A stretch of 64,000 nucleotides of DNA, taken from positions 372,001 to 436,000 of the forward strand of contig JAYXKI010000016.1 of assembly GCA_037892935.1 (NCBI GenBank). The letters are read 5' to 3'. The stretch's first letter is position 1, and every line of letters begins with the position of its first letter. The position numbers and the translations under genes are program-made. Below are positions 42,866-58,700 of this stretch, piece by piece. Source of the DNA: Phlebopus portentosus (taxonomy: Eukaryota; Basidiomycota; Agaricomycetes; Boletales; Boletinellaceae). The notes under the pieces were generated by a model. That model was not told the origin of the DNA, did not search any database, and worked only from the letters and a program-made list of their open reading frames with translations.

Positions 42866-44543
42866 ATGACTGGTCAGTCTCCTAAAGGACTCTTTTCGTT
42901 GGACTTGTTAAAATATAATTGTCCTGTTGTACAATACCAAGATGCAAATATCAGAGATGGTTTCATCCTTCGAGAGATCCTTACTGATATGCTGCCAGAT
43001 GAATCTAAAGATGATGATGATGACTTCAAAGTCTATGAAGATTTGTTTGTCAGAAGAGCAGATGTGCAAGCAGGTGAGTTGAGAGAGGAAGAGCAGATTC
43101 AAACCGCTATAAAAAATGAGGTTGTGGCAGAAGAACCTTACCATGAGAACATTATTGCTTGGGCAAACATTACCGAAGCAGTGTGGGATGTAGTTGGCAG
43201 ATGCATGGCTGAGGTATGGCACGAAGGCATAGAGGATGCAGAACAGTTCATCAGGAGGGCAGGTGGTAAAGAACTAGATGCCTTCATCAGCATCATTCAT
43301 CCTAAGGTCACTGGAGATGATGAAGTCAATCTGTTGAATCCTGGACTTGAGAACAAGAACTTCATTGATGCTCATGCTTTAATCAATTCAGGATGTACAG
43401 GTTCATACATCGATGAAGGTTTTGTTAAGCGATACAGTTTCCTAACTGAAGATATATCCAACCTAGGCCAGTCTTCAATGCTGATAGTACTAGCAATGAA
43501 AGTGGACTAATCAAGGAGTACGTTGTGGTACAGATGTTCTTTGGCAAGCATGAGGAGGAGATCCAATTGGCAGTCACGTCTTTGGTGTAAGTAACATTTT
43601 CCTTGGTCATGACTGGTTACAGAAACATAACTCAGAGATCGACTGGAAGATTGGGTCCATCAAGTTTACACGTTGTCCAGATGAATGCAATTTGATGTTG
43701 ATAAAGAAAGAGATAGACGATGAGTATGAGGAATGTGAGGATGAAGAAAGCAGCAAAGTGGCCTGCCTTACCTGGAAGAGTATACTGACATCTTTAGTGA
43801 GGAATTGTTCGAACATTTACTGAATCATCGAACGTGAGACCACGCTATTGACTTGAAACCGGACTTCAAACCTAGCGACTGCAAGGTTTACTTATTATCA
43901 CCAAAAGAATAAGAGGCAATGAAGGAGTTCATTGAGGAAAACCTAGCATCAGGATGTATCTGACAGTTGAAATCTCCAATGGCGTCACCATTCTTTTTTA
44001 TCAAGAAAGAAAATGAGAGCTTGTGAGCAATCTAAGACTACCGAAAGCTCAACAAAGAAATGGTCAAGAACAAGTATCTGTTGCCATTGATAAATGAGCT
44101 CATCAACAAGGTCAAGGATGCAAAATATATCACGAAGCTTGATGTTCACTGGGGATACTACAACATTCAGATTCGTGGGGGTGATAAGTGGAAGGCGGCT
44201 TTCAGGACAAACTTAGACTTATTCAAACCAACAGTCATGTTCTTCAGACTATGCAATGCACCAGCAACTTTCCAAGGTTTTATGAATGACATTTTTTGAG
44301 AATTGATCCATGAAGGTATCGTTATCATTTACCTCAATGACATCCTTATCTTCTTGAATGACCTGGAAGAACATCAAAAGTGGACCAAGTGAGTTTTTGA
44401 GATTCTACATCAGAATGGACTTTTCCTGAAGCTGCAGAAGTGCAAGTTTGAGGTTGACACAGTTAAATACCTCAGACACATCATTGGCAATAGCGAGGTT
44501 CAAATGGACCCCAAGAAAACAGCAGCGGTACAGGACTGGCCGG
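42866..44543 (+). pseudogene. G2 pol, first part (protease, reverse transcriptase), catalytic Asp lost
   Basis: Protease motif reads A-L-I-N-S-G-C-T-G-S (Asp to Asn), followed by a frame change near 43500 and the L-G-H-D-W-L-Q-K-H-N segment. RT follows from about 43770 (S-E-E-L-F ... Y-R-K-L-N ... I-T-K-L-D-V ... F-R-L-C-N-A-P-A-T-F-Q). The catalytic box reads Y-L-N-D instead of Y-L-D-D. There are many stops. It ends in D-W-P-V at the G3a insertion and continues at 56971. Confidence 0.9.
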
Positions 44544-46130
44544 TGAAGAGTAAGTCTGAAGCTTGGGAACGTACGGAGTCGTTACGACCAGTTCCGTGGG
44601 GTTCCGACTGGTTTCGCTCGGTTTCGACTGGTTTCGCTCGAACGAGTGAACTTAGCAAGAACGCCATAGTCCAGATGGCACGTGCACCGTTCTTTGATCG
44701 GCCATCAAGACGGGAGAATCACGGCATCGAGTTTGCACGCGTCGATCACAAGTCTCCGGACCTCGGATCCGCATTCCAGACAAAGAGATTTGACCCTGCA
44801 ACCTTGTCCTCAGTCCCTCTCCTTTGTTAAACATCGCAGACTTACTTTGTCAGGCTAGCCAGAGCCCTTCCGAGTCGTTTCCCCGAGTTCCGCTTCGTTC
44901 CGCTCAAAGAGACCCGGTTCCGAAGGTTCCGCACATATTCTGACCTTTCTATATGCGTCCCCTTTAATCCATTATGCTCTCGTTCCAGACATGCTTAGTA
45001 TTGTTTCTTTTGACCTATGTGTCCCTTAAACCATTCCTATGCGCTCCTCTCCTTTATAGATAGCGATATGCGTTCCCTTTTCTTTATGACGTAGGTTCTC
45101 TGACCGCTGGGAGGCTCAGTCTTGGACATTTAGTATAAATATAGCACAACTCTCGTAGTAGAGGGACAGCTTAGTGGGAGCTGAGTGGGAGCTTAGCTTG
45201 CAGTTCTCACATCGTCTCAAAGCCTCTCGACCTCTAGTCTACTTGTTCGTAGTGGACTCTCTCGTCTCTATAGTCTAATATACGACATATCGTGTTCTGT
45301 ACAGTCGATCGGTGATCTCTCTTCGCAGTAGAGCCGTTTGTGCGTTCGTATAGTTCACCGTCATCGTATAAAGGCTTCTCTATCTTCTCTCACCCGAAAC
45401 AAGATCCCCTCACGTGTTTCGATCCGTTTCGCCCGGTTTCGCTCGTAACCCAGTTACTCTGCGTGCCGCTCGCATTTGGTCTCGCAACACCTTCTCCTCT
45501 CCATTGTCGTCAGGAAAGGACACTATATCACCCCTTTCCTCTTGACTTTCCACTCCCCGCTTCCTCAAGACCAGCCCGGTGCTATTCCGCATCGTTTCGA
45601 TTCTCTCAGTCCCCTTCCATCATCGTTGTGCACCTCCATCCCTCGCATCACATTACGACACACTCAGCTATTGTCCTTCGTCCATCGTATCGTGTTTCGA
45701 ACCGTTACGCCGCGTTCCGACACTTAAGACTACGAGTGAGATCGACTGCAGTCACTTACCAGTGTGTTAGCACAGTCGATTAGTCACGTTCGGGTTGGTG
45801 GTTTGACTAGCGTAGCTTAGTTAGTTTAGTTCTTGTGCCTTGGGTTAGTCGGCTTTAGTCCAGAGCTCGCAGTTGAGCAGGAGAGTCGATTTAGCCTTTG
45901 CACCGCCGCCGTCGATCTCGGGAGAAGCCTACCCTCGGAATTCCTCCTCGAGCGCTTCCCTCATATCCCCGGTTCTCACCAAGCCCTTCCATTGTCTATC
46001 CCTATTTCCCTCCACTCCTTCGTGCCCTTAGCTCGGGTGTAACTCTCTGCTGACCACTTGAAGGTATTCTAGGGCAGCCCCTCGAACTATACACTCTCTG
46101 TCCGGCATCAGAATGTCCAAAGGAGTTTCA
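44544..46130 (+). repeat. G3a 5' LTR (1587 bp)
   Basis: TGAAGAG...GTTTCA. TATAAATA at 45134-45141 gives a long R-U5 of almost 1 kb. GGTTTCG phrases recur at the start in a ~20-bp pattern. It lacks 40 bp found in the other two G3 LTRs; the deletion ends lie in a TTCGAT direct repeat, so it arose after insertion by slippage. Short open frames inside are not genes. Confidence 0.93.
45134..45141 (+). promoter_or_regulatory. TATA box of the G3a LTR
   Basis: TATAAATA, conserved in all three G3 LTRs (also 55935-55942 and 59291-59298). The likely retrotransposon promoter. Confidence 0.6.
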
Positions 46131-46132
46131 AG

Positions 46133-46144
46133 TGGAGCCCACGG
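46133..46144 (+). promoter_or_regulatory. G3a primer-binding site
   Basis: TGGAGCCCACGG two bases after the LTR. Starts with TGG, as expected for pairing with a tRNA 3' CCA end. The tRNA identity cannot be settled here. Same in G3b. Confidence 0.65.
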
Positions 46145-46249
46145 TGAGGGGGATTTCACTGTCCAACCATTACGAATACCCCGCCAAATTCGTCTAGCAG
46201 ACGAGTTACACGTAGCCAATCCGCTCGAGTCCCTGTAGAACATCAGGTT

Positions 46250-48643
46250 TTGCCGCCGACTCGAAGGCCTAGGATTGTCAATCGCAACATACGTTCCGCT
46301 GCGGAAAATGTGGAACACAGCGAAACACCCTTGCGACAATCCGTTAGTGCCATTCCTTCCAACACCGATTCCCTAGATCATTCCCCATCTACCATCGCCG
46401 ATTCAGAACTCCCCAACCTCTCATCCGTGCCAGCTTCCACCCCAGGCTCACCGAACAGACCAGCTAGCCCGCCTACCAATTACCAACTACCTACCGGAAC
46501 TCAACAGATCTTAGCCAGCAACGCAGCGATAATAGCTCATCTGTCTGCTAACGCTAATGTATTACAACAACTTACAAATCGACAAACCGCAATGGCGTAC
46601 CAACCGCCCTCGCGTGGGGACAAACGTGCCCCAACGTTTGACGGCTCAGAACCAAAGGAACTCCCTAGGTTCTTCGAAGACGTTGCAGAAATTGCAAGAC
46701 AGGCTGCGTGGAACGATAGAGATCACGTCCGAAAGTTCTTGTACTATGCGAAGACCGACGTCGCGGAACTTTGGGAGACTACCGACAAGATTAACGACCC
46801 GAACCCTGATGTGGAGACGGTGAAGAGAGAGATTATAGCTCTATACCCGAGTCTCACGGCAGAGAAACGCTACTCCAAGGGAGAACTGGAGCATTTGGTT
46901 GTAGAACGGGCGAAGAAAGGGATCAAGAACCGAGAAGACCTAGGCGAATATCATCGAGAATTCGTCAGGCGCTCTAAGTATCTTATAACGAACGGAAAGA
47001 TCTTGGAGTCCCAAGCTGACGAGATGTTCCTGATGGGAATTACAGGAGACCTTAGAGAGGCACTCATTCGTCGTATCGAGATCAAGCTACCAGACCACGA
47101 TTCGTCTACGCCTTACAAGATTAAGGACGTGCTCGAACATTCGAATTTTGTGCTGGGAGGAAAGATTGTGGGCAGTTTTGGCAGTAACTTTCCACCCCCA
47201 GCTACCGGAGAAGCTTCGACAAGTATCGTGAAGAAGGAAGAAGTGGATTTGGCCAAGGTAATGGATATGTTGAAGAGTTTTCAGGTTACGCTCGACGCCC
47301 TGAGCAAGGGGAACATTCCGCATTGCCCAGGGGCGGAACGCAGCGAAACTCCACAAAACCCAGTTTGCAACTTCTGCGGCAAAGCAGGACACTATATTCG
47401 ATCGTGTACGAAGGTTCTCGAGTACATCCAAGCCGGAAAGTGCGTTAGGAGCCAGGATGGAAGGATTGTGTTGCCGAACGGTGGTCTCATTACGAGGTCG
47501 CTACCGGGGAACAATCTCAAAGAACGAATCGATAGCTTTCATGCTAAAGCCCCGGCGACACACACAGTAGGGATGGTCGAGTCGGTCACGCCCGCATATA
47601 GCCATCAAGCTGGTCCAGCGTACGCATATAGTCACGACGAAGAAGATCAGCACGAGCAGGAAAACTACGACATCAAACATTTGGAGATTTTGATTAACGA
47701 GGCGAAGAAGAAGGCAGCTGGTGGACGAAGAACGAAGCGCGATGGCATAGAGATCCCTAGAGTTCAGCCTCATAAGAAGGCGCAGGCGAAACCGCAGCCC
47801 GCGCCACCGAGTGGTGCGCGGCCCTCGACAAGGTCACTCCAGTCACCGCAGCAGGACGACATTACCAGGAAATCACAACCCCAGTATAAATACGTCGTAC
47901 CAATAGAAGACTCGAGCGCAGTCTCCAACGTTCTGACTCGTACTCTCGATACCCCTATCACCATCAGCCAACGAGAACTCCTCTCAATCGCCCCGGACGT
48001 TAGGAAACAGATGAAGGAGCTGACGACGGCGAAGAGATACAACGCGGCTGAAGTCAAATACGGTGAGGTCGTAGATGATTCACTTACGTTACAAGTTGGG
48101 CGTTTCGCGTCGGAACAAGTCGAAACAGGCGAAACGCTTTCGACGGAAGAAATACTGGCGCTCAGTGGACAAGGCGTCGCCGCAGAGGCATCCATGCCCC
48201 TCAGGACCGTTAGCGCGTTGATTGAAGATACCCTGGAAGTCGAATGCGTGCTTGACCAGGGAGCCGTAGTGTGTCTGCTCCGCGAAGACGTATGGGAGAA
48301 GCTTCAGATACCCCTATCCCCTGACAAAGGAATGATCCTCGAGACAGCAGACGCAGCTAGGTCATCTACCATTGGCATGATCTCTAATGCGAAGTTCACG
48401 ATAGCCGGGATTGACATTTCGCTCCAAGTGCAAGTCGTTCCGAACGCTCCCTTCCAGGCTTTGTTGGGGAGACCGTTTTTCGCTATTACGGAGTGCGAAA
48501 TGAAGGATTACACATCAGGTGACCAACATATCACCTTAATGGACCCAAACAATCGCAGAAAGCAAAGCAAAGTGGCCACCGGAATTTGAATGATCGTGCG
48601 AGGACCACTTCCAAAGGGTTTTCCGCAAGCGTCGAGGAACTGA
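46250..48643 (+). pseudogene. G3a gag-protease ORF, premature TGA, no early ATG
   Basis: A frame open before TTG 46250 has its first ATG at 46592, just ahead of the gag core (F-D-G-S-E-P-K-E-L-P-R-F-F). A CCHC knuckle C-N-F-C-G-K-A-G-H-Y-I-R-S-C and a retropepsin-like end (L-D-Q-G-A ... L-G-R-P-F-F) follow, so the protease is encoded with gag. TGA at 48587-48589 replaces CGA Arg of G3b; the natural stop is TGA 48641-48643, 18 codons later. The Ser/Pro-rich region before the ATG is also open in G3b, so it may be translated through splicing or a non-AUG start. Confidence 0.85.
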
Positions 48644-48693
48644 TTGAGAGAAATTGGCGAGACGAGAATGGTAGTAACCAATTGCCGGTTCAG

Positions 48694-48796
48694 GTATTTT
48701 CCTATGATTTCGAATTTATTTCACACATGATCCCATCTCTTTTCAACTAACGGTTGCCTTATTTATTAAACAAAAATTACTATACTACTGACAAAG
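48694..48796 (+). other. Candidate intron between G3a gag and pol
   Basis: GTATTT donor after TTCAG, ACTAAC branch-like site, ACAAAG acceptor, 103 nt, AT-rich. Removing it does not by itself place pol in the gag frame, and the gag stop lies before it. Also present in G3b (62892-62993), with a poorer branch site. Confidence 0.3.
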
Positions 48797-51700
48797 AAGA
48801 ACGGTCATATCGTTCATGTGTTTTAGAAACCCCAGAAGAAGAAGACGCGGTGGTAATGGCTTACAAACGAGTAGCGCAGAAAGTCAGGCCGATCCCGGGA
48901 GTCCTTCCAGAAGAATACAGGATCGTACGAAGGCAGCATCCGGATCCGTTGAGAGGGATGCCTGAGATGCCAATTGTACCGAAGCCATTTGAACCCATGG
49001 GTCGTGTAACCGCCGAAAGGATGGAAGCACTGAAGATCGACGAGAGTACCTTTCTGTGGCCGGCGGAGAGGTTATTAGTGAAGAATCTGATTATGTTGCA
49101 GGGAGAAGCGTTAGCATAGACCGAATCCGAATGCGGAACACTCGATCTGACGTATTTCGACCCGATACGCATTCCCACGATACCGCATATACCGTGGCAG
49201 CACAAGAGCATTCCAATTCCCCCGGGAATTCATGACAAGGCCCTCGAACTTATTCGAGAGAAGATTCGCAACGGGGTTATTGAACCGTCGAATTCGTCGT
49301 ATCGGTCCAGATGGTTTTGCTTGGTAAAGAAAGACAAAGAAACGTTGCGATCCATCATCGACTTGCAGGATCTTAATGCGGTTACGGTTAAGGACTCGGC
49401 AGTACCACCGAACGTCGAAACGATCGCGGAGAGCAGTGGAGGGCGAGCTTGTTACACGGAGTTGGATTTATTCGTTGCCTTCGACCAAAGAAAGCTTGAC
49501 GAACACTCACGAGATCTTACTACGTTCCAGACACCCTTGGGAACATTTCGAATGACGGTTCTACCAATGGGATACACCAATTCCTTGCAGATTATGCATA
49601 ACGACGTGGCCTTTATCCTTCAGGATGAGATTCCGCACGTTACGAACCCTTTCGCAGACGATGCGCCCGGTTTAGGCCCGAAATCGCGATATGAGTTACC
49701 GGACGGTTCGTACGAGACCATACTGGGAAACTCCGAGATTTGTCGTTTCGTGTATGAGCATATATGTGTAAGGGTCACGCGCATGTATATTCGATTTCCT
49801 TTTCTTTTTCCTTTTCCTTTTCTTTTATTGTCATCATCTATACCCGTCCAAACATTCTTTAACCTTCTCCGATCACTCCGACGTCACATGGTCTCTTAGT
49901 TAGTTCATTAGTCATTCCCTATTACTCCCCTCCGATGTTCCCCCATGCTTCCTCCGATCCGTCCGACCACATGACCTAACCCTGAACCCTATGACATCAC
50001 ACTCATTTCCTTAGTCGGTAGTCTTTTCCCAGGCTTGAAGGGTATATGAAGGCCGTAGAGGCCCCTTGCCTCGACATTCGTTAGATCTCCGGCTATACAC
50101 TCGCTTTGTCTCTACGTCGATGCTCACTCCTCGGATTATCTGAGGGGCTGGGTTCTCTTGCTTATTAAAGGTTGTCTCTTAGTTAGTAGGCATCGGTGAT
50201 GCGGGCGTTAGGCTGTCGCCTAACAATATGCGATGTGAACAGAATTTTGCAGCGAATGAAGGCCGTAGGAGGAACGTTTTCAGGAAAGAAGTTGGTTCCG
50301 TGTGTGGAGTCAGCTATATTCGTTGGACACAAGTTGACGTACCAGGGACGCGAGCCAGACGATTCGAAAGTACAGAAGATACGAGATTGGCCGCCATGTA
50401 GAACACTGACCGAAGTCAGAGGATTTCTGGGAACGGTAGGAGTCCTTCGGATTTTCGTCAGGGATTATTCGAAACTCACTCGCCCGTTGTACCGCATGAC
50501 AAGGAAGAACCAGATTTTCGCGTGGACAGACGAAGAACAGAACGCAATGGACGAACTAAAGCAAGCCGTTATTCTTTGCCCCGCGCTGTGCGCAATTGAC
50601 TACGCGTCGGATAACGAAGTAATATTGGCGGTAGACTCGTCTATTATTGGAGTTGGTTGGTATTTAGGACAAGAGCACTCGGATGGAAGGCGAAGGATCA
50701 ATCGTTTCGGCTCTATTAACTGGAATCAGACCCAGGCATTGTATTCACAGCCGAAAATCGAGTTATACGGCTTATTTCGAGCATTGCATGCAATGCGACT
50801 GTATCTCATCAGAGTCCGGAATCTAGTAGTCGAAATGGACACAGCATACATCAAGGGGATGATCAACAATCCCGACCTGCAGCCCAATGCGACCATTAAC
50901 AGATGGATCGCAGGTATCCTTCTCTTCAGTTTCAAGCTCAGACACATCCCAGCAGCCGATTTCCGATGTACCGATGGATTATCCAGACAAAGAGCAGCTG
51001 AAGAAGACCCCCCTCCGGATGAAACGTACGAAGACTGGGTAGACGAAACGTACGGTTTTGCGATAGAAGAGCCGGTTTCGACATACCAAGTAGCACAACA
51101 GGGCGGAACACCTAGCGAAACAGCGACAGAGAACCTATTTCCTTCTACGGAATCCGCGAGAAGGAAGGATAGCCGCTTAGATGACGTCACGAAGCTAATC
51201 ACGCATCTCACACACCCAGACAATCTTAGCGATAGTGGCTATGTGAAGCTAATCAGGTACGCAGCTGACTTCTTCGTGAAGGGAGGCCGTCTGTGGAGAA
51301 AGGCACGGAACGGCCAGCACCAAGTCGTAATAGAAGCGAAACGCAGGTGGGACCTGGTCAAGCAAGCTCACGACGATCTAGGACACAAAGGAATTTTCTG
51401 CACTCGAATGCGACTGCTGGAGAGATTTTGGTGGCCGTCCTTAGGACAGGACGTGAAGTATTTCGTGCGCACCTGTCATGAGTGCCAGATACGCCAGACG
51501 AAGAATATTCTTATCCCACCGAACGTACCGGAGGTAGCCCCTCTGTTTCAACGCATCCATATTGACTCGAAGGTCATGCCGAAATCGAGTGGATTCCGGT
51601 ATATCGTGCATGCGCGTTGTTCGTTAACCGCGTATCCCGAATTTAGACTTCTTCGTGAAGAAACTGGTAAGACCGTAGGCCAGTTTATCTTCCAGAACCT

Positions 51701-52529
51701 TTTGTGTCAATATGGAGCATGCCCCAAACTTGTTACCGACAACGGCACACCATTCGTTGCTGCGCTAGATTACTTGAAGACACGGTATCACATCAACCAC
51801 ATTCGAATTTCGTCATACAACTCACGCGCAAATGGATTAGTCGAACGCAGACATTTCGATGTACAGGAAGCCTTGATTAAAGCTGCAGACGGTAATGACA
51901 AGCGTTGGAGTGATCACGCTGACTCGGTATTTTGGGCAGAAAGAATCACAATCAACAGAGCAACAGGAATGTCCCCGTATTACATGGCCCATGGAGTCGA
52001 AGCAGTTTTGCCTTTCGACCTCGCAGAAGCAACATACCTGGCACCGCCGTTCGATTCGCCAGTTACGATGTCGGAACTCATCGTAATACGTGCAAAACAA
52101 CTCCAGAAACGTCCAGAAGAGTTGGATCGCATTGCGAAACTCGTCATGAATGCAAGGCATGCATACGCAAAGCAGTTCGCCGAGGTGGAGAAGCATAGAA
52201 TCAAGGACTACGACTTTCAGCCAGGAAGCCTCGTACTCCTGCGAAACACGCGTATCAAGATGGAACTCAATCGTAAAACGAAACCCCGCTATTTAGGCCC
52301 CTACGTGGTAGTTCGACGCACTCAAGGCGGTTCGTATATTGTCGCCGAACTCGATGGAGCAGTTTCGAAACTCCGAATAGCAGCGTTTCGCCTGGTTCCG
52401 TACTTCCCGCGTTCGCATTTGACTGTTCCGGTGACCAAGCTCATTGGATCGGACGAAGATGATGACATACCCAAAATAGAAGATTCGCCAGAGAAATTCT
52501 CTGACGATGAGTCCCAAAATTCCGATTAA
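48754..52529 (+). pseudogene. G3a pol (RT, RNase H, integrase) with one TAG and a solo LTR
   Basis: A single frame opens before 48754 (first ATG of the frame at 48856) and ends at TAA 52529 once the 459-bp solo LTR and its duplication are removed. RT contains W-F-C-L-V-K-K-D, Y-T-E-L-D-L and a divergent catalytic box F-A-D-D. RNase H follows (A-V-D-S-S-I-I-G-V), then integrase with HHCC zinc finger (H-D-D-L-G-H ... C-H-E-C) and D-D-E (H-I-D-S, V-T-D-N-G, L-V-E-R-R-H). There is no chromodomain; the tail is acidic. TAG at 49117-49119 replaces TGG in G3b. Gypsy domain order is clear. Confidence 0.9.
49767..50225 (+). mobile_element. Solo LTR (459 bp) in G3a RT, ATATG target duplication
   Basis: Absent from G3b at the same place. 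TGTAAGG...CCTAACA, flanked by ATATG at 49762-49766 and 50226-50230. Contains a CT-rich tract and a TATAT promoter block after CTTGAAG, like the G2 LTR. A perfect GTTAGGC-TGTC-GCCTAAC hairpin lies at its 3' end. Same broad LTR family as G2. Confidence 0.9.
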
Positions 52530-52975
52530 ATCATTCATTTCCCTTCATATATGCTCCTTACTTATTTCCGATTCTCTCTCTCTCCTCTGATCAATTCTAA
52601 TCTTCCAATTCTCCTTCTATAGTTTCGTCTCTGCTAGCGTGATCCACAATAGGATCTAACGCGTGTACTTTTACTTAATACGCAGTTTCACACGGTTTCG
52701 CCGTTCAAAACAGCGGAACGACGGCGAAATGCCTCAATTCACTTCGTATCAGTTTCCTTTCATCCTATTCCTTGAATTCTTTGATCTATTCTTCTAGTCA
52801 TCACTCAGTCTCGCTCGATCACACGAAAATTCACAAAAACCGAAACAAAATCGTATAAATTAACTATAAAAACAACTATGTACAGTACAAGTTATTTTTC
52901 TTTTTCTTTTGTCCTTTTCTTTTTCTATTTTACAAAAGTCCGACCAGGACATAGAGCATACACGATGATTATACT
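52530..52975. other. Convergent intergenic region of G3a
   Basis: About 450 bp between pol (+) and the antisense gene (-), AT- and CT-rich, with no gene. Perfect inverted repeat TTTCGCCGT (52696-52704)/ACGGCGAAA (52721-52729), possibly a terminator-side hairpin. Confidence 0.5.
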
Positions 52976-55216
52976 CTATTCCCGAGCCCTACCTTTCCCC
53001 TTCGACTGACGAACCCTCTCCACTTCCCCTCTATCTTCCTCTTCCTCGTCTTCACCTTCCCCCGTCTTCACCCCAGCCAACTCAAGCAGCAGACGACGAT
53101 CCGCGTGCGCCTGCGCTACGAGGACGCTGAATTCGTTCAGCATCCGGGACAGGACCTTGTCCCGGTGATCCATCCGCGCCAGCACGAACTGCAGCTCGGA
53201 TTCCCCGACCTCCCGCTGTAGAGCCTCATGCTCGATGCGACCACCCACAGATCTGGCCGCCAGAGCCGTGACTTTCCGGCGTTTTGCTTCCCGATCGCGC
53301 GCCTCCTGAGCTGCCTTACGCTTTGCGGCTACAGCCCTGCCCTTCGTGGCTAGACTACAGCCCTTCGCCTGCTTCAAGCACGAAGTGTAGGTCCTCTGTG
53401 GAAGACCCACGCAATCACGGCCACGCTTCTGGCACTGGTCGCACAGAACCCGATGACGAACGCGCCCATCGCCCAATCGTTCATCACCATCATCGTCGTC
53501 GTTGTCGTCATTATCGTTGTCGTCACCTCCAGAACCACCACCATTAGCCGGAATCCTAGAAGGACCAGCCTCAGGTTGAGAAGACGCTCGTCGTGCCGGA
53601 GAAACGCGTCTCGCTTGCGTTTTGACAGTTTCGCGCAGAACAGCAGCAGTACCGCTATTGTTGTTGTTGTTGTTGCTGTTGTTGTTGCTCGCGGTATTGA
53701 GAGCCTGAATCTCTTCAAGGCTTGCGTCCGCCTCAAACGGCTCATTCGCCTCCATTCCCACATCACCGATATCCATTCCGCCGTCGCCTGGACTCACAAC
53801 AACGGAGTCTTCTCCCCGATGACCAGGAGGAGGACTCTCAGGACTTTCCTGAATCGCAGGAGTCTCCTCATCCGAGTCCACCACTTGCCGAACACCACGA
53901 ATGCGGCGAGTCCCTGCATCCAGCTGTCGTCGCATGTTGGCCTCGATTTTGACAGCCATCCGGGAGATTTCAGCGCGTTGAGCAGCGCATTCTTCTTCTT
54001 CTCGTCTTTCACTCTCGCGAAGCTCAATCTCGAGCATTGTAGGTTCGAGTGAGGTTAAGGGTGTAGAACGGCTAGCCCCTTCCAAACGTTCCACTCCGGT
54101 TTCGAGCGTTTCAACCAGTTCCGCGACCTCTCCGTCCTCAATCATTTCGCCAGTTTCGACCTGAAGAGGAGTGGAATCAACCTCCATTGGACTATCGACG
54201 TCCTGAGGCAACATTGGTTGTTGCTGCTGTTGTTGTTGCGGTTGAGGAAGAGGTTGGGAAGGTTCAGACAGCACTTGTTGGGATCGTTGTTGTTGCTGTT
54301 GTTGTTGTTGCGTTTCGGATTCCTGAGCACGAACGAGTTGATAGAGCCGACGACGAAGGATGGAATAGCCGTAGTATTCCCAGAGGAGCCGGACCGTTCT
54401 CAATTTCACCCTGTCGATGCGAAGGATGTGCCCTGCACGAAGGTGTCGTTGCTCGATATCCTCCCAATATTCGAACGCTTGCTGTAGGAAGGATTAGATG
54501 GAGATGATAGACAAGAAGAAGTACCTACATGACTCCGGACAGCTTCGTCTCGCATGTAGTCCGTGTTGCCGGTGAACCTCGCCATTTGTTGGAACTTGGA
54601 GCTCTCCATTCTCACGTTCTCGAGAGCCTTTTCGATGTCAGGGCGCAGTTTCGGGAACATTGGAGGGAACAATTCACCCAAGAAGAACCCACGAGTCGAA
54701 TCGAACGAGGCTGGATGGAATGGAACCCTGCATCTGCGGAAGAAAGCTCGTCGTTTGGTCTCCATCCTGGTGTAAAATTCCCGTCGATCGTAGTACAGCA
54801 TCCGTAGGAGAGCGTCCGTGTCGCAGTAGTTGGAGTACGCTGTCTCCGACCAGACTTCTTTCGTTCCTTTGGGACGGACTTGCTCCAACGCTTCCTTCCG
54901 TGCCTGTCGAATTTCGTTAACAAAAATTCTTGATTAGAGTGCGCGGTTTACGCACCGTGGTTGCCTTCCACCCATCCATCAAAGATTCCATCACCGGATT
55001 CGTCAACCACCGAACCGTCATCGAACCTGTAGGTGCGATCCATTCGACCGGTTTTGTCTTATCCGGCAGAATTACCGTCGTGACGCCATGGTCTAGTTCA
55101 TCCATTGCCGACCTGGCCAAGGCGACGTCTGCCTCGAATTTTGCGACCGCTGCCTTCCAGTCGTCATCGGAGTTGATGGGTCCCAAGAGCGCGACGATTT
55201 CTTCGGAAGTGAACAT
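52976..55216 (-). CDS. Antisense three-exon gene inside G3a (713 aa, Zn-cluster-like)
   Basis: Exons on the minus strand: 54956-55216 (87 codons from ATG 55216), 54529-54903 (125 codons) and 52976-54481 (501 codons plus TAG). Introns of 52 nt (GTGCGT...GACAG) and 47 nt (GTAGGT...CTACAG) each have a CTAAT branch-like site and sit in phase 0; the three frames join without a stop. The first ~250 residues look globular, with no known domain. Next come poly-Gln (about 270-277), acidic and poly-Asn stretches, then a Cys cluster C559-x2-C562-x6-C569-x7-Y577-x2-C580-x6-C587, the CX2CX6C doublet of fungal Zn-cluster proteins with one Cys changed to Tyr. A basic K-R-R-K segment and a Glu-rich tail end it. 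Probably nuclear, perhaps DNA-binding. It lies between pol and 3' LTR, against the retrotransposon. A passenger gene or element-encoded regulator. Confidence 0.8.
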
Positions 55217-55344
55217 GTTGGAGAATGAAGAAGAGATGACAGCGGAAGAAAATTTGGACACGACGCGTTATGCTTCGAAACTCCCACACGTCGGATTGAG
55301 ATGGGAGTGACCGCGGACGGTCACTATTTCATGAACCCGGGAGA
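55217..55344. other. 5' flank of the antisense gene and end of the G3a internal region
   Basis: 128 bp to the 3' LTR. Contains a perfect GTGACCG-CGGA-CGGTCAC hairpin (55307-55324) and only a weak purine stretch (CCCGGGAGA) before the LTR, so the polypurine tract is not obvious. The antisense promoter should be here or in the LTR. Confidence 0.4.
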
Positions 55345-56970
55345 TGAAGAGTAAGTCTGAAGCTTGGGAACGTACGGAGTCGTTACGACCAGTTCTGCGG
55401 TGTTCCGACTGGTTTCGCTTGGTTTCGACTGGTTTCGCTCGAACGAGTAGACTTAGCAAGAACGCCATAGTCCAGATGGCACGTGCACCGTTCTTTGATC
55501 GGCCATCAAGATGGGAGAATCACGGCATCGAGTTTGCACGCGTCGATCACAAGTCTCCGGACCTCGGATCCGCATTCCAGACAAAGAGATTTGACCCTGC
55601 AACCTCGTCCTCAGTCCCTCTCCTTTGTTAAACATCGCAGACTTACTTTGTCAGGCTAGCCAGAGCCCTTCTGAGTCGTTTCCCTGAGTTCCGCTTTGTT
55701 CCGCTCAAAGAGACCCGGTTCCGAAGGTTCCGCACATATTCTGACCTTTCTATATGCGTCCCCTTTAATCCATTATGCTCTCGTTCCAGACATGCTTAGT
55801 ATTGTTTCTTTTGACCTATGTGTCCCTTAAACCATTCCTATGCGCTCCTCTCCTTTATAGATAGCGATATGTGTTCCCTTTTCTTTATGACGTAGGTTCT
55901 CTGACCGCTGGGAGGCTCAGTCTTGGACATTTAGTATAAATATAGCACGACTCTCGTAGTAGAGGGACAGCTTAGTGGGAGCTGAGTGGGAGCTTAGCTT
56001 GCAGTTCTCACATCATCTCAAAGCCTCTCAACCTCTAGTCTACTTGTTCGTAGTGGACTCTCTCGTCTCTATAGTCTAATATATGACATATCGTGTTCTG
56101 TACAGTCGATTGGTGATCTCTCTTCGCAGTAGAGCCGTTCGTGCGTTCGTATAGTTCGCCGTCATCATATAAAGGCTTCTCTATCTTCTCTCACCCGAAA
56201 CAAGATCCCCTCACGTGTTTCGATCCGTTTCACCCGGTTTCGCTCGTAACCCAGTTACTCTGCGTGCCGCTCGCATTTGGTCTCGCAACACCTTCTCCTC
56301 TCCATTGTCGTCGGGAAAGGACACCATATCACCCCTTTCCTCTTGACTTTCCACTCTCCGCTTCCTCAAGACCAGCCCGGTGCTATTCCGCATCGTTTCG
56401 ATCAGAAACGGTCGGTTTCATCGTCCCACACATATCCTTCGATTCTCTCAGTCCCCTTCCGTCATCGTTGTGCACCTCCATCCCTCGCATCACATTACGA
56501 CACACTCAGCTATTGTCCTTCGTCCATCGTATCGCGTTTCGAACCGTTACGCCACGTTCCGACACTTAAGACTACGAGTGAGATCGACTGCAGTCGCTTA
56601 CCAGTGTGTTAGCACAGTCGATTAGTCACGTTCGGGTTGGTGGTTCGACTAGCGTAGCTTAGTTAGTTTAGTTCTTGTGCCTTGGGTTAGTCGGCTTTAG
56701 TCCAGAGCTCGCAGTTGAGCCGGAGAGTCGATTTAGCCTTTGCACCGCCGCCGTCGATCTCGGGAGAAGCCTACCCTCGGAATTCCTCCTCGAGCGCTTC
56801 CCTCATATCCCCGGTTCTCACCAAGCTCTTCCATTGTCTATCCCTATTTCCCTCCACTCCTTCGTGCCCTTAGCTCGGGTGTAACTCTGCTGACCGCTTG
56901 AAGGTATTCTAGGGCAGCCCCTCGAACTATACACTCCCTGTCCGGCATCAGAACGTCCACAGGAGTTTCA
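55345..56970 (+). repeat. G3a 3' LTR (1626 bp)
   Basis: As the 5' LTR but with the 40-bp segment and scattered substitutions. Ends GTTTCA, followed by CCGG of the target site. Confidence 0.93.
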
Positions 56971-58700
56971 CCGGTTCCAAAGAATGTCCACAAACTGCAA
57001 CAATTTCTGGGACTAGAGAATTGGTTGCAGCATTTTGTTAAGGACTACAGTTCAGTTATCAAACCTTTAACTACGCTGACAGGCAAGGTGGAATAGAAGT
57101 GGGGCAAAGAGGAGAAGGCAGTGTTCAAAGAGTTGAAGCGTCGCTTGAGCAGTCCCCTCATACTAGCAATACCCAACAATGAAGACCCTTTTTGAGTGGA
57201 AGCTGATGCATCAGATTTTGCAACTGGTGGAGTGCTTCTCCAGAAGCAAGATGGCAAGTGGAAGGTGATTGCTTATCGGTCATCAACCTTCTTGGAGGCA
57301 GAGCATAACTACAAGATCTACAACAAGGAGATGCTTGCTATTGTTCAAGCCCTCAAGGAATGGTGACAGTACCTCCAGGGAGCCAACAAACCTTTTGAAG
57401 TATGGACAGACCATGCAAACCTAATGTACTTCCAATTGCTGCAAAAATTAAATTGTTAACAGGCTCATTAGTGACTCGACTTAGCTGAATTTGATTTCAC
57501 ACTAGTCCATAAACCTGGAAAGACATTGGGTAAGGCTGATCTGTTGTCACGATGGGCAGATTATGACAAGGGTGAGTACGATAATGAGAATGTAATATTC
57601 ATCAAAAAGGAGTGGTTGGTCAGAGGGATGGTTCAGACATCGAGAGAGGTACTTATCAAAAAGGTCACAGAAGCGCAGAGACAGGAGGATAAGAGAATAA
57701 GACCAAAGGAAGTTGAGAAGAGAGGGGACATGTGGAGGAAAGGCAGGCAGATATATGTACTAGCAAGCGTTAGAGAGATTGTTATGAAGGAACACCATAA
57801 CTCGACCCTGGCAGGACATCTAGGAGTGACGAAGATGATCCAGTTAATAGCACAAAGGTACTGATGGCCGAGGATGAGTGCAGATGTGCGGGTGTATGTG
57901 CGGGGGTGTGATTATTGTCAATAGACGAAGGCTCTAAGGACAATGAGGGTAAAGGTTTTGCACCCTAACAAGGTGCCGGAGGCGCCATGGCAAATTGTCA
58001 TGGTCGACCTGATTAGAGAGTTACCAGAGTTGAATGGATTTAATGCGATTTGCATTATAGTTGACCACTTCAGCAAACAAATCCATGCAATTCCGACAAT
58101 GACAAAGCTAATGGCTGAAGGCATGGCAAGGATCTACAGAGACCACATCTTCCAATTACATAGACTGCCTCGAAAGATCATTCACAACCGAGGAGTACAA
58201 TTTGATGCAAAAATGATGAAGGAGTTATACAAGCTCCTTCATATCAAGGGCAACCCATTGACAGCGTATTACCCACAAACCAATAGACAGACAGAGCGGG
58301 TTAATTAAGAGCTGGAGCAATACCTTCGGCTGTACGTCAACTATCGGCAGTTGGACTGGGCAGATTGGCTAGCTCTTGCAGAGTTCGCATACAATAACTA
58401 TAAACACTCAGTGACAAAGTTGTCCCCCTTTTTCATTAACATAAGAATACACCCCTTGGACTTTATGGGGGTTGGGACGGCGTCGTCAAACCTATCAGCA
58501 GAAGAATTTGCCAAGCATGTCAAGGAGGTGCATGAGCTTGCTCAGAGTAACCTAGCCCAAGCAAATGAAGATATGAAGCACTTCTATGATTGTCATGCTG
58601 GAAAGTCTGTTAGTTATGAGGCAGGGCAGAAAGTCTTCTTGGATGGATGAAATATCAAGATGATCCAGCCGACAAAGAAGACGGATGACAAGTGGTTCGG
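56971..58700 (+). pseudogene. G2 pol, second part (RNase H, integrase), catalytic Asp lost
   Basis: Continues G2 after G3a: RT thumb, RNase H (V-E-A-D-A-S-D-F-A-T-G-G-V-L) and integrase with HHCC (H-N-S-T-L-A-G-H ... C-D-Y-C). The second catalytic Asp is Asn (I-H-N-R-G-V-Q-F). The Glu motif is present (Q-T-N-R-Q-T-E-R-V-N). Stops replace Trp, Gln or Arg codons at many places, for example after K-V-E and E-W. It ends in D-D-K-W-F-G, where G3b has inserted. Confidence 0.9.

Follow-up and report, generated by a model that had tools for sequence, protein, structure and literature searches.

Introduction

Boty-like gypsy elements of Botrytis cinerea reportedly carry an antisense gene, brtn, said to have been described by Zhao et al. 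in 2011 (Virology 417:248). In the retrovirus HTLV-1, the spliced antisense gene HBZ is expressed from the 3' LTR, and its product is a nuclear regulator, a bZIP protein. Antisense genes between pol and the 3' LTR are known from the plant elements Grande, RIRE2 and Retand and from the fungal element Boty, as described in two publications (PMC7264820, PMC11963269), the first of which places an antisense promoter of HTLV in the 3' LTR (PMC7264820).

We analysed a window of 64,000 nucleotides from Phlebopus portentosus (C16:372001-436000), containing the gypsy element G3a, and searched the 38.4 Mb assembly to which it belongs. G3a contains an antisense gene that lies between pol and the 3' LTR, opposite to gag-pol, is present in most copies and encodes a protein conserved between copies, as is characteristic of an aORF-3R. 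Like the antisense genes of Grande, RIRE2 and Retand, it occupies the same place, is found in most copies of its family and has no known host homologue, and its product is suspected of being a nuclear nucleic-acid-binding protein (PMC7264820, PMC11963269). It differs from the plant systems in the kingdom of its host, in the two to four introns that the gene has in the G3 clade and in its six-cysteine motif; the 2025 paper on Retand makes no mention of introns in its main text (PMC11963269). The Retand-type domain TRP28 (PF04195) matched neither the 713-aa protein (E up to 1) nor four Sanghuangporus relatives discussed below (P0001-P0004, E up to 5). Boty, likewise a gypsy element of a fungus, also has an additional antisense gene located between pol and the 3' LTR (PMC7264820); the pol of Boty is described as having a chromodomain (PMC4227169), whereas that of G3a gave no Pfam chromodomain match. 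The likeness to HBZ is that of a spliced antisense gene beside the 3' LTR; no homology is claimed, and no bZIP domain of the HBZ type was matched by Pfam in the G3 protein or its Sanghuangporus relatives. It is highly probable, in our judgement, that the locus is a real, selected, element-borne accessory gene, spliced and protein-coding, which lies between pol and the 3' LTR and is encoded by the minus strand.

Gene structure and genomic context

The minus-strand gene consists of three exons joined through two GT-AG introns, and splicing of the window sequence reproduced to the base the 713 codons and the phase-0 introns of 52 and 47 nt proposed in the first-pass annotation. Exon 1 (54956-55216; 261 nt, 87 codons), with its ATG at 55216, is followed by intron 1 (54904-54955; GTGCGT..CTAAT..CGACAG), exon 2 (54529-54903; 375 nt, 125 codons), intron 2 (54482-54528; GTAGGT..CTAAT..CTACAG) and exon 3 (52976-54481; 1506 nt with the stop, 501 codons plus stop). 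Both introns contain a CTAAT-type branch site. Between 52530 and 55344 the longest stop-free run is 505 codons, compared with a maximum of 337 and a mean of 162 in 500 dinucleotide shuffles, the real run being lengthened relative to the shuffles by its triplet tracts.

The LTRs of G3a lie at 44544-46130 (5') and 55345-56970 (3'), both on the plus strand, and the target duplication CCGG is found on their outer sides (44540-44543 and 56971-56974). These positions place the antisense gene within the element, bearing out the location that had been claimed for it. On the plus strand, the gag-protease frame (46148-48589, stop to stop; DUF4100, zinc knuckle and aspartyl protease in Pfam) is followed by the Pfam-assigned reverse transcriptase part of pol (49120-49767, end set by eye) and its RNase H and integrase part (50217-52529, start set by eye). 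The antisense stop codon is 446 nt away from the end of pol at 52529. Directly before the 3' LTR is a purine stretch, GGGAGA (55339-55344, plus strand), which is likely to be the polypurine tract.

The window copy is in decay, its pol being interrupted and one cysteine of the zinc motif gone. An insertion of about 450 nt (approximately 49768-50216, junctions by eye), resembling a solo LTR of another element, splits the reverse transcriptase, and a stop codon is present just ahead of 49120; the G3a copy is not autonomous. CpG changes account for 27 of the 35 mismatches between the two LTRs, and they dominate decay both in the window element (44544-56970) and in 40 further copies (L009-L048), suggesting CpG methylation of G3 elements.

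G3a is itself nested in another gypsy element, the frame of which apparently continues across the empty site, judged by eye. Several copia copies, up to 99% alike and in both orientations, form a nested cluster with long inverted repeats at 5171-38785 of the window. Elsewhere in the assembly, a gypsy element of another clade (L060, minus strand of G000:C2:2944400-2948400) is followed by long sense-strand frames of 305 and 515 aa, one of them with a hydrophobic N-terminal stretch; this may be an additional sense ORF, perhaps env-like. In a further gypsy element, the sense frame that follows pol (L059:811-1683; ENYEEEI..) is a candidate additional ORF and resembles a 240-aa frame near the window start (1200-1922).

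Conservation among genomic copies

With the DNA of the gene region as query, at least 43 matches were obtained, at least 33 of them spanning the full query (best 40 of 82 candidates scored). A 178-aa query spanning exon 2 and the beginning of exon 3 gave 135 matches, with all candidates scored and a lowest identity of at least 72%. Forty G3 copies (L009-L048) were compared. The ATG is kept in all 38 copies that cover its position, and so is intron 1 with its GT and AG in all 38 that cover the intron. Intron 2 is kept in 40 of 40; its acceptor AG is invariant, and its donor is GT in 34 copies and AT in the other six. Matches to exons 2 and 3 from the 178-aa search form 63 pairs, every one with a gap of 35-70 nt, and in 56 the gap is 41 nt, the value expected if the intron is 47 nt long and the two hits overlap by two residues. 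Thus, no intronless copy was seen, either among the copies covering intron 1 (38) and intron 2 (40) or among the 63 exon-pair gaps.

A sense-strand intron in a retrotransposon would be lost. The introns of the antisense gene would persist because the sense genomic RNA bears only the complements of their splice sites, so that reverse transcription copies them. The first-pass annotation had held that antisense introns survive retrotransposition in this way; the absence of intronless copies agrees with its prediction and fits reverse transcription of unspliced sense RNA.

The whole frame is open, without premature stop or frameshift, in 19 of the 40 copies, and the other 21 lack a complete open frame. 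Two of the open copies (L023 and L027) have an altered intron 2 donor, and 17 retain both the frame and the splice dinucleotides. Since 366 of the 566 changes counted in coding columns of the 40 copies are at CpG sites, decay of the copies is largely CpG loss. It had been proposed to look for the same gene in other G3 copies, where its lack or random stops would speak against it: the gene is there, its introns kept in every covering copy, and the frames are divided between the 19 that are open and the 21 that are not, with mostly CpG loss behind the decay.

Selection on the antisense frame

Per site, changes outside CpG that are shared by at least two copies have a frequency of 0.016 at the first, 0.032 at the second and 0.078 at the third codon position, and of 0.063 in the 3' flank; singleton non-CpG changes are distributed more flatly (0.069, 0.058 and 0.098). 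Nonsynonymous (N) and synonymous (S) shared changes number 29 and 42, plus one stop, where the mutation spectrum predicts an N/S of 2.21, which makes the ratio 0.31 (p 1.2e-6), and singletons number 75 and 47 (ratio 0.72, p 0.10), the p-values being approximate because shared changes are not independent events. Taking the spectrum from non-coding sites alone, the ratios become 0.30 for shared changes and 0.70 for singletons. The comparison of substitution types between copies, suggested along with the original gene model, thus points to purifying selection on the antisense frame. This difference between shared and singleton changes is the one expected if selection operates from one transposition round to the next and copies decay once they have inserted. 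Frame-breaking gaps number two in 2,142 coding nucleotides versus 13 in 633 non-coding nucleotides. Of 34 distinct gaps in the coding sequence, 32 have a length divisible by three, which is weak evidence, as nearly all fall in the triplet tracts encoding Q, N and D.

These data bear on two other readings of the locus. The product might be the antisense RNA, forming double-stranded RNA that tunes how strongly the element is silenced, with an incidental frame; antisense transcripts of LTR elements can act so, according to a published account (PMC7264820), and in a related family described below the frame is often broken (four of five copies compared with stops or frameshifts). The codon-position bias, an N/S at 0.31 of expectation and the few frame-breaking gaps nevertheless require selection at the protein level, and six cysteines are kept in 37 of 39 copies, making an RNA-only role improbable. 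RNA and protein roles can coexist.

The other reading concerns a sense frame at 53354-54052, which could be the true gene, env-like or another accessory gene, with the antisense frame as its shadow. It is open in 35 of 38 copies, versus 27 of 38 for the antisense frame over the same stretch. Its shared changes, however, are 20 N and 4 S (ratio 2.42), a value that indicates no constraint and disfavours this candidate, while those of the antisense frame over the same stretch are 13 N and 11 S (ratio 0.46). With only 232 codons, the sense frame also explains neither the introns nor exons 1 and 2, and we regard it as extremely unlikely to be the gene. It is the protein frame on the antisense strand that is under selection, and the sense frame overlapping it is not.

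Protein sequence and cysteine motif

After its N-terminal part, the protein has in turn a Q-rich tract, tracts rich in N and in acidic residues, six cysteines, a basic stretch and the C-terminal part. Structure modelling gave a poor result (mean pLDDT 40); in the model the N-terminus is helical with low confidence and the C-terminus is probably helical. No sequence relative of the C-terminus was found in the PDB.

The Zn2Cys6-like motif (residues 559-587; 53357-53443, minus strand) has the family pattern CX2CX6CX7CX2CX6C. In Zn(II)2Cys6 proteins the spacing is CX2CX6CX5-12CX2CX6-8C. This spacing is present in the 37 of 39 G3 copies covering the motif that keep all six cysteines, and in P0001-P0004; it is absent from L051, a locus of a related family, and from the window copy, in which the fourth cysteine is replaced by tyrosine. 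The zinc-cluster-like motif noticed in the window therefore holds for the family and not for the copy in which it was noticed. As in Gal4-type factors, C-X2-C-X6-C-X7-C-X2-C-X6-C is followed by a basic stretch and a probably helical segment; unlike in those factors, the motif is near the C-terminus, falls short of PF00172 and is encoded inside a retrotransposon. Pfam Zn_clus (PF00172) gave no match for G3 or its closest sister family, and for the more distant one it remained below the cut-off (E 0.33, 11.5 bits against a cut-off of 21), which is why we call the motif zinc-cluster-like.

Related families and proteins

A 205-aa integrase query matched the genome in three tiers: G3 (at least 88% identity), family 2 (approximately 80-82%) and family 3 (approximately 55-59%). 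An antisense gene of one of three kinds, its strand checked, is found at most 4.5 kb downstream of 109 of the 117 integrase matches; eight have none within this distance. By integrase identity, the gene accompanies 51 of 56 matches at 88% or more, 24 of 27 at 70-87%, all three at 60-69% and all 31 at 55-59%. The proposal that the gene travels with the element is upheld by this association across the clade, and by the lack of any intronless copy.

The family 2 gene (L049; 600 aa) has three exons of 82, 117 and 401 codons, separated by phase-0 introns of 64 and 54 nt. Aligned by eye, its intron 1 is at the matching place of the G3 gene (..TT/ARKEALEQVRP.. versus ..IQ/TARKRLEDLRP..), and its C-terminus is 29% identical to that of G3 (E 3e-10). 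It is a clear homologue of the G3 gene. Four of the five family 2 copies compared are open over the stretch aligned, and non-CpG variable sites number 6, 12 and 23 at codon positions 1, 2 and 3. The family 3 gene has five exons and four introns of 60, 54, 63 and 52 nt, the second being 71 nt in L055; the introns are phase 0 in four of five copies, and the fifth (L050) has a frame shift. Only one of the five copies compared (L058, 472 codons) is open, the other four containing stops or frameshifts. Full-query DNA matches number 19 for family 2 and 25 for family 3, plus one short by one base. The six cysteines are present in four of five family 2 loci (L051 does not keep all six) and in all five family 3 loci. 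Between family 3 and G3 or family 2, blastp found nothing significant, and the likeness is confined to the spacing of the six cysteines; the family 3 gene likely shares descent with the others, judged by its place and layout, not by sequence proof. The antisense gene evolves much faster than the integrase; what it retains is its place, its strand, its introns and its cysteines.

Protein searches (7,994 candidates scored) retrieved five relatives, all hypothetical proteins, from Sanghuangporus sanghuang, S. weigelae and S. baumii, and the same five were recovered with a query lacking the Q tract. No relatives outside Sanghuangporus were found in three protein searches, two of them with about 8,000 candidates scored. 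The six cysteines are kept in P0001-P0004, and P0005 is cut short. P0002 and P0004 continue smoothly over both intron places, meaning that those annotations use comparable introns. Some of the hypothetical Sanghuangporus proteins (P0001-P0005 and P0007) may themselves be retrotransposon genes.

The first-pass annotation had also considered a host gene carried along, and had suggested a protein search, which yielded the five hypothetical relatives and no host-gene ancestor. If one element had recently taken up a host gene that then multiplied with it as a passenger, without a role in the element, introns and fungal-type splice sites such as those observed would be expected. Yet no diverged host paralogue was found in the genome, the 135 matches to the 178-aa query (all candidates scored) including none below 72% identity; the relatives retrieved in the three protein searches, two of them with about 8,000 candidates scored, are all from Sanghuangporus; comparable genes occupy the corresponding position in two sister families; and purifying selection acts among copies. 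Recent capture is thus very improbable, and an element-borne accessory gene remains the preferred interpretation.

The palindrome beside the 3' LTR

An 18-nt palindrome, GTGACCGCGGACGGTCAC, is located at 55307-55324, 90 nt upstream of the antisense ATG. It has a single match in the window when up to two mismatches are allowed, against 0.05 expected. It is present in 34 of 40 G3 loci, 33 of them exact and one with a change; the six without it include some that are cut short. In G3 it reads GTGACCGTCCGCGGTCAC and in family 2 GTGACTGTCCGCAGTCAC (L049:2856-2873), the change being compensatory. G3 and family 2 share a 52-nt block (85% identity, E 1.7e-10) that contains both the palindrome and the purine stretch preceding the LTR; over about 800 nt upstream of the two genes, no other strong match was found. 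Upstream of the family 3 gene, no match to the palindrome was found. The palindrome includes CGG triplets, and CGG is the half-site of many Zn2Cys6 proteins. It is the best candidate for an autoregulatory site, and may equally serve plus-strand priming.

Discussion

A putative role in regulating the element is plausible. The promoter for antisense transcription would be situated within the 3' LTR or next to it, in the short CT-rich leader that follows the palindrome. The antisense pre-mRNA would be spliced, and the sense genomic RNA would be copied with the introns in place. The acidic and Q-rich tracts, the zinc-cluster-like motif, the basic stretch and the probably helical C-terminus suggest that the protein enters the nucleus and binds DNA or RNA. 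Its most likely job would be to control the element's own expression or integration, and it might do so through the palindrome, a suggestion that we make tentatively, giving it somewhat less than even weight.

A protein acting in replication or integration instead of transcription, for instance by chaperoning nucleic acids, by mediating nuclear import of the integration complex or by targeting, is possible but on balance unlikely. The zinc motif and basic stretch would fit any nucleic-acid binding, and the palindrome shares its block with the purine stretch used in plus-strand synthesis; Pfam gives no domain evidence either way. Returning to a regulatory role, a more far-reaching proposal is that the clade has kept a spliced, fast-evolving, zinc-cluster-like antisense regulator since before the three families split, with its promoter beside the 3' LTR and its action on the palindrome, as an independent fungal counterpart of the antisense retroviral regulators. 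We put this forward as speculation that may well not hold in full; if it does, the introns would double as a strand check, only the antisense RNA being spliceable into a readable message.

In the open-access literature, we found no report of a spliced, zinc-cluster-like antisense gene common to several families. The novelty appears to be in the combination: spliced, zinc-cluster-like, in a basidiomycete, under measured purifying selection and common to families. In plants and fungi alike, the reason for which LTR retrotransposons harbour antisense genes is still being sought. In this clade, the introns allow a direct test of antisense expression, since one spliced read proves both strand and structure, and the many young copies suit evolutionary tests. 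The two sister families show that a gene of this sort persists even as its sequence becomes almost unrecognizable.
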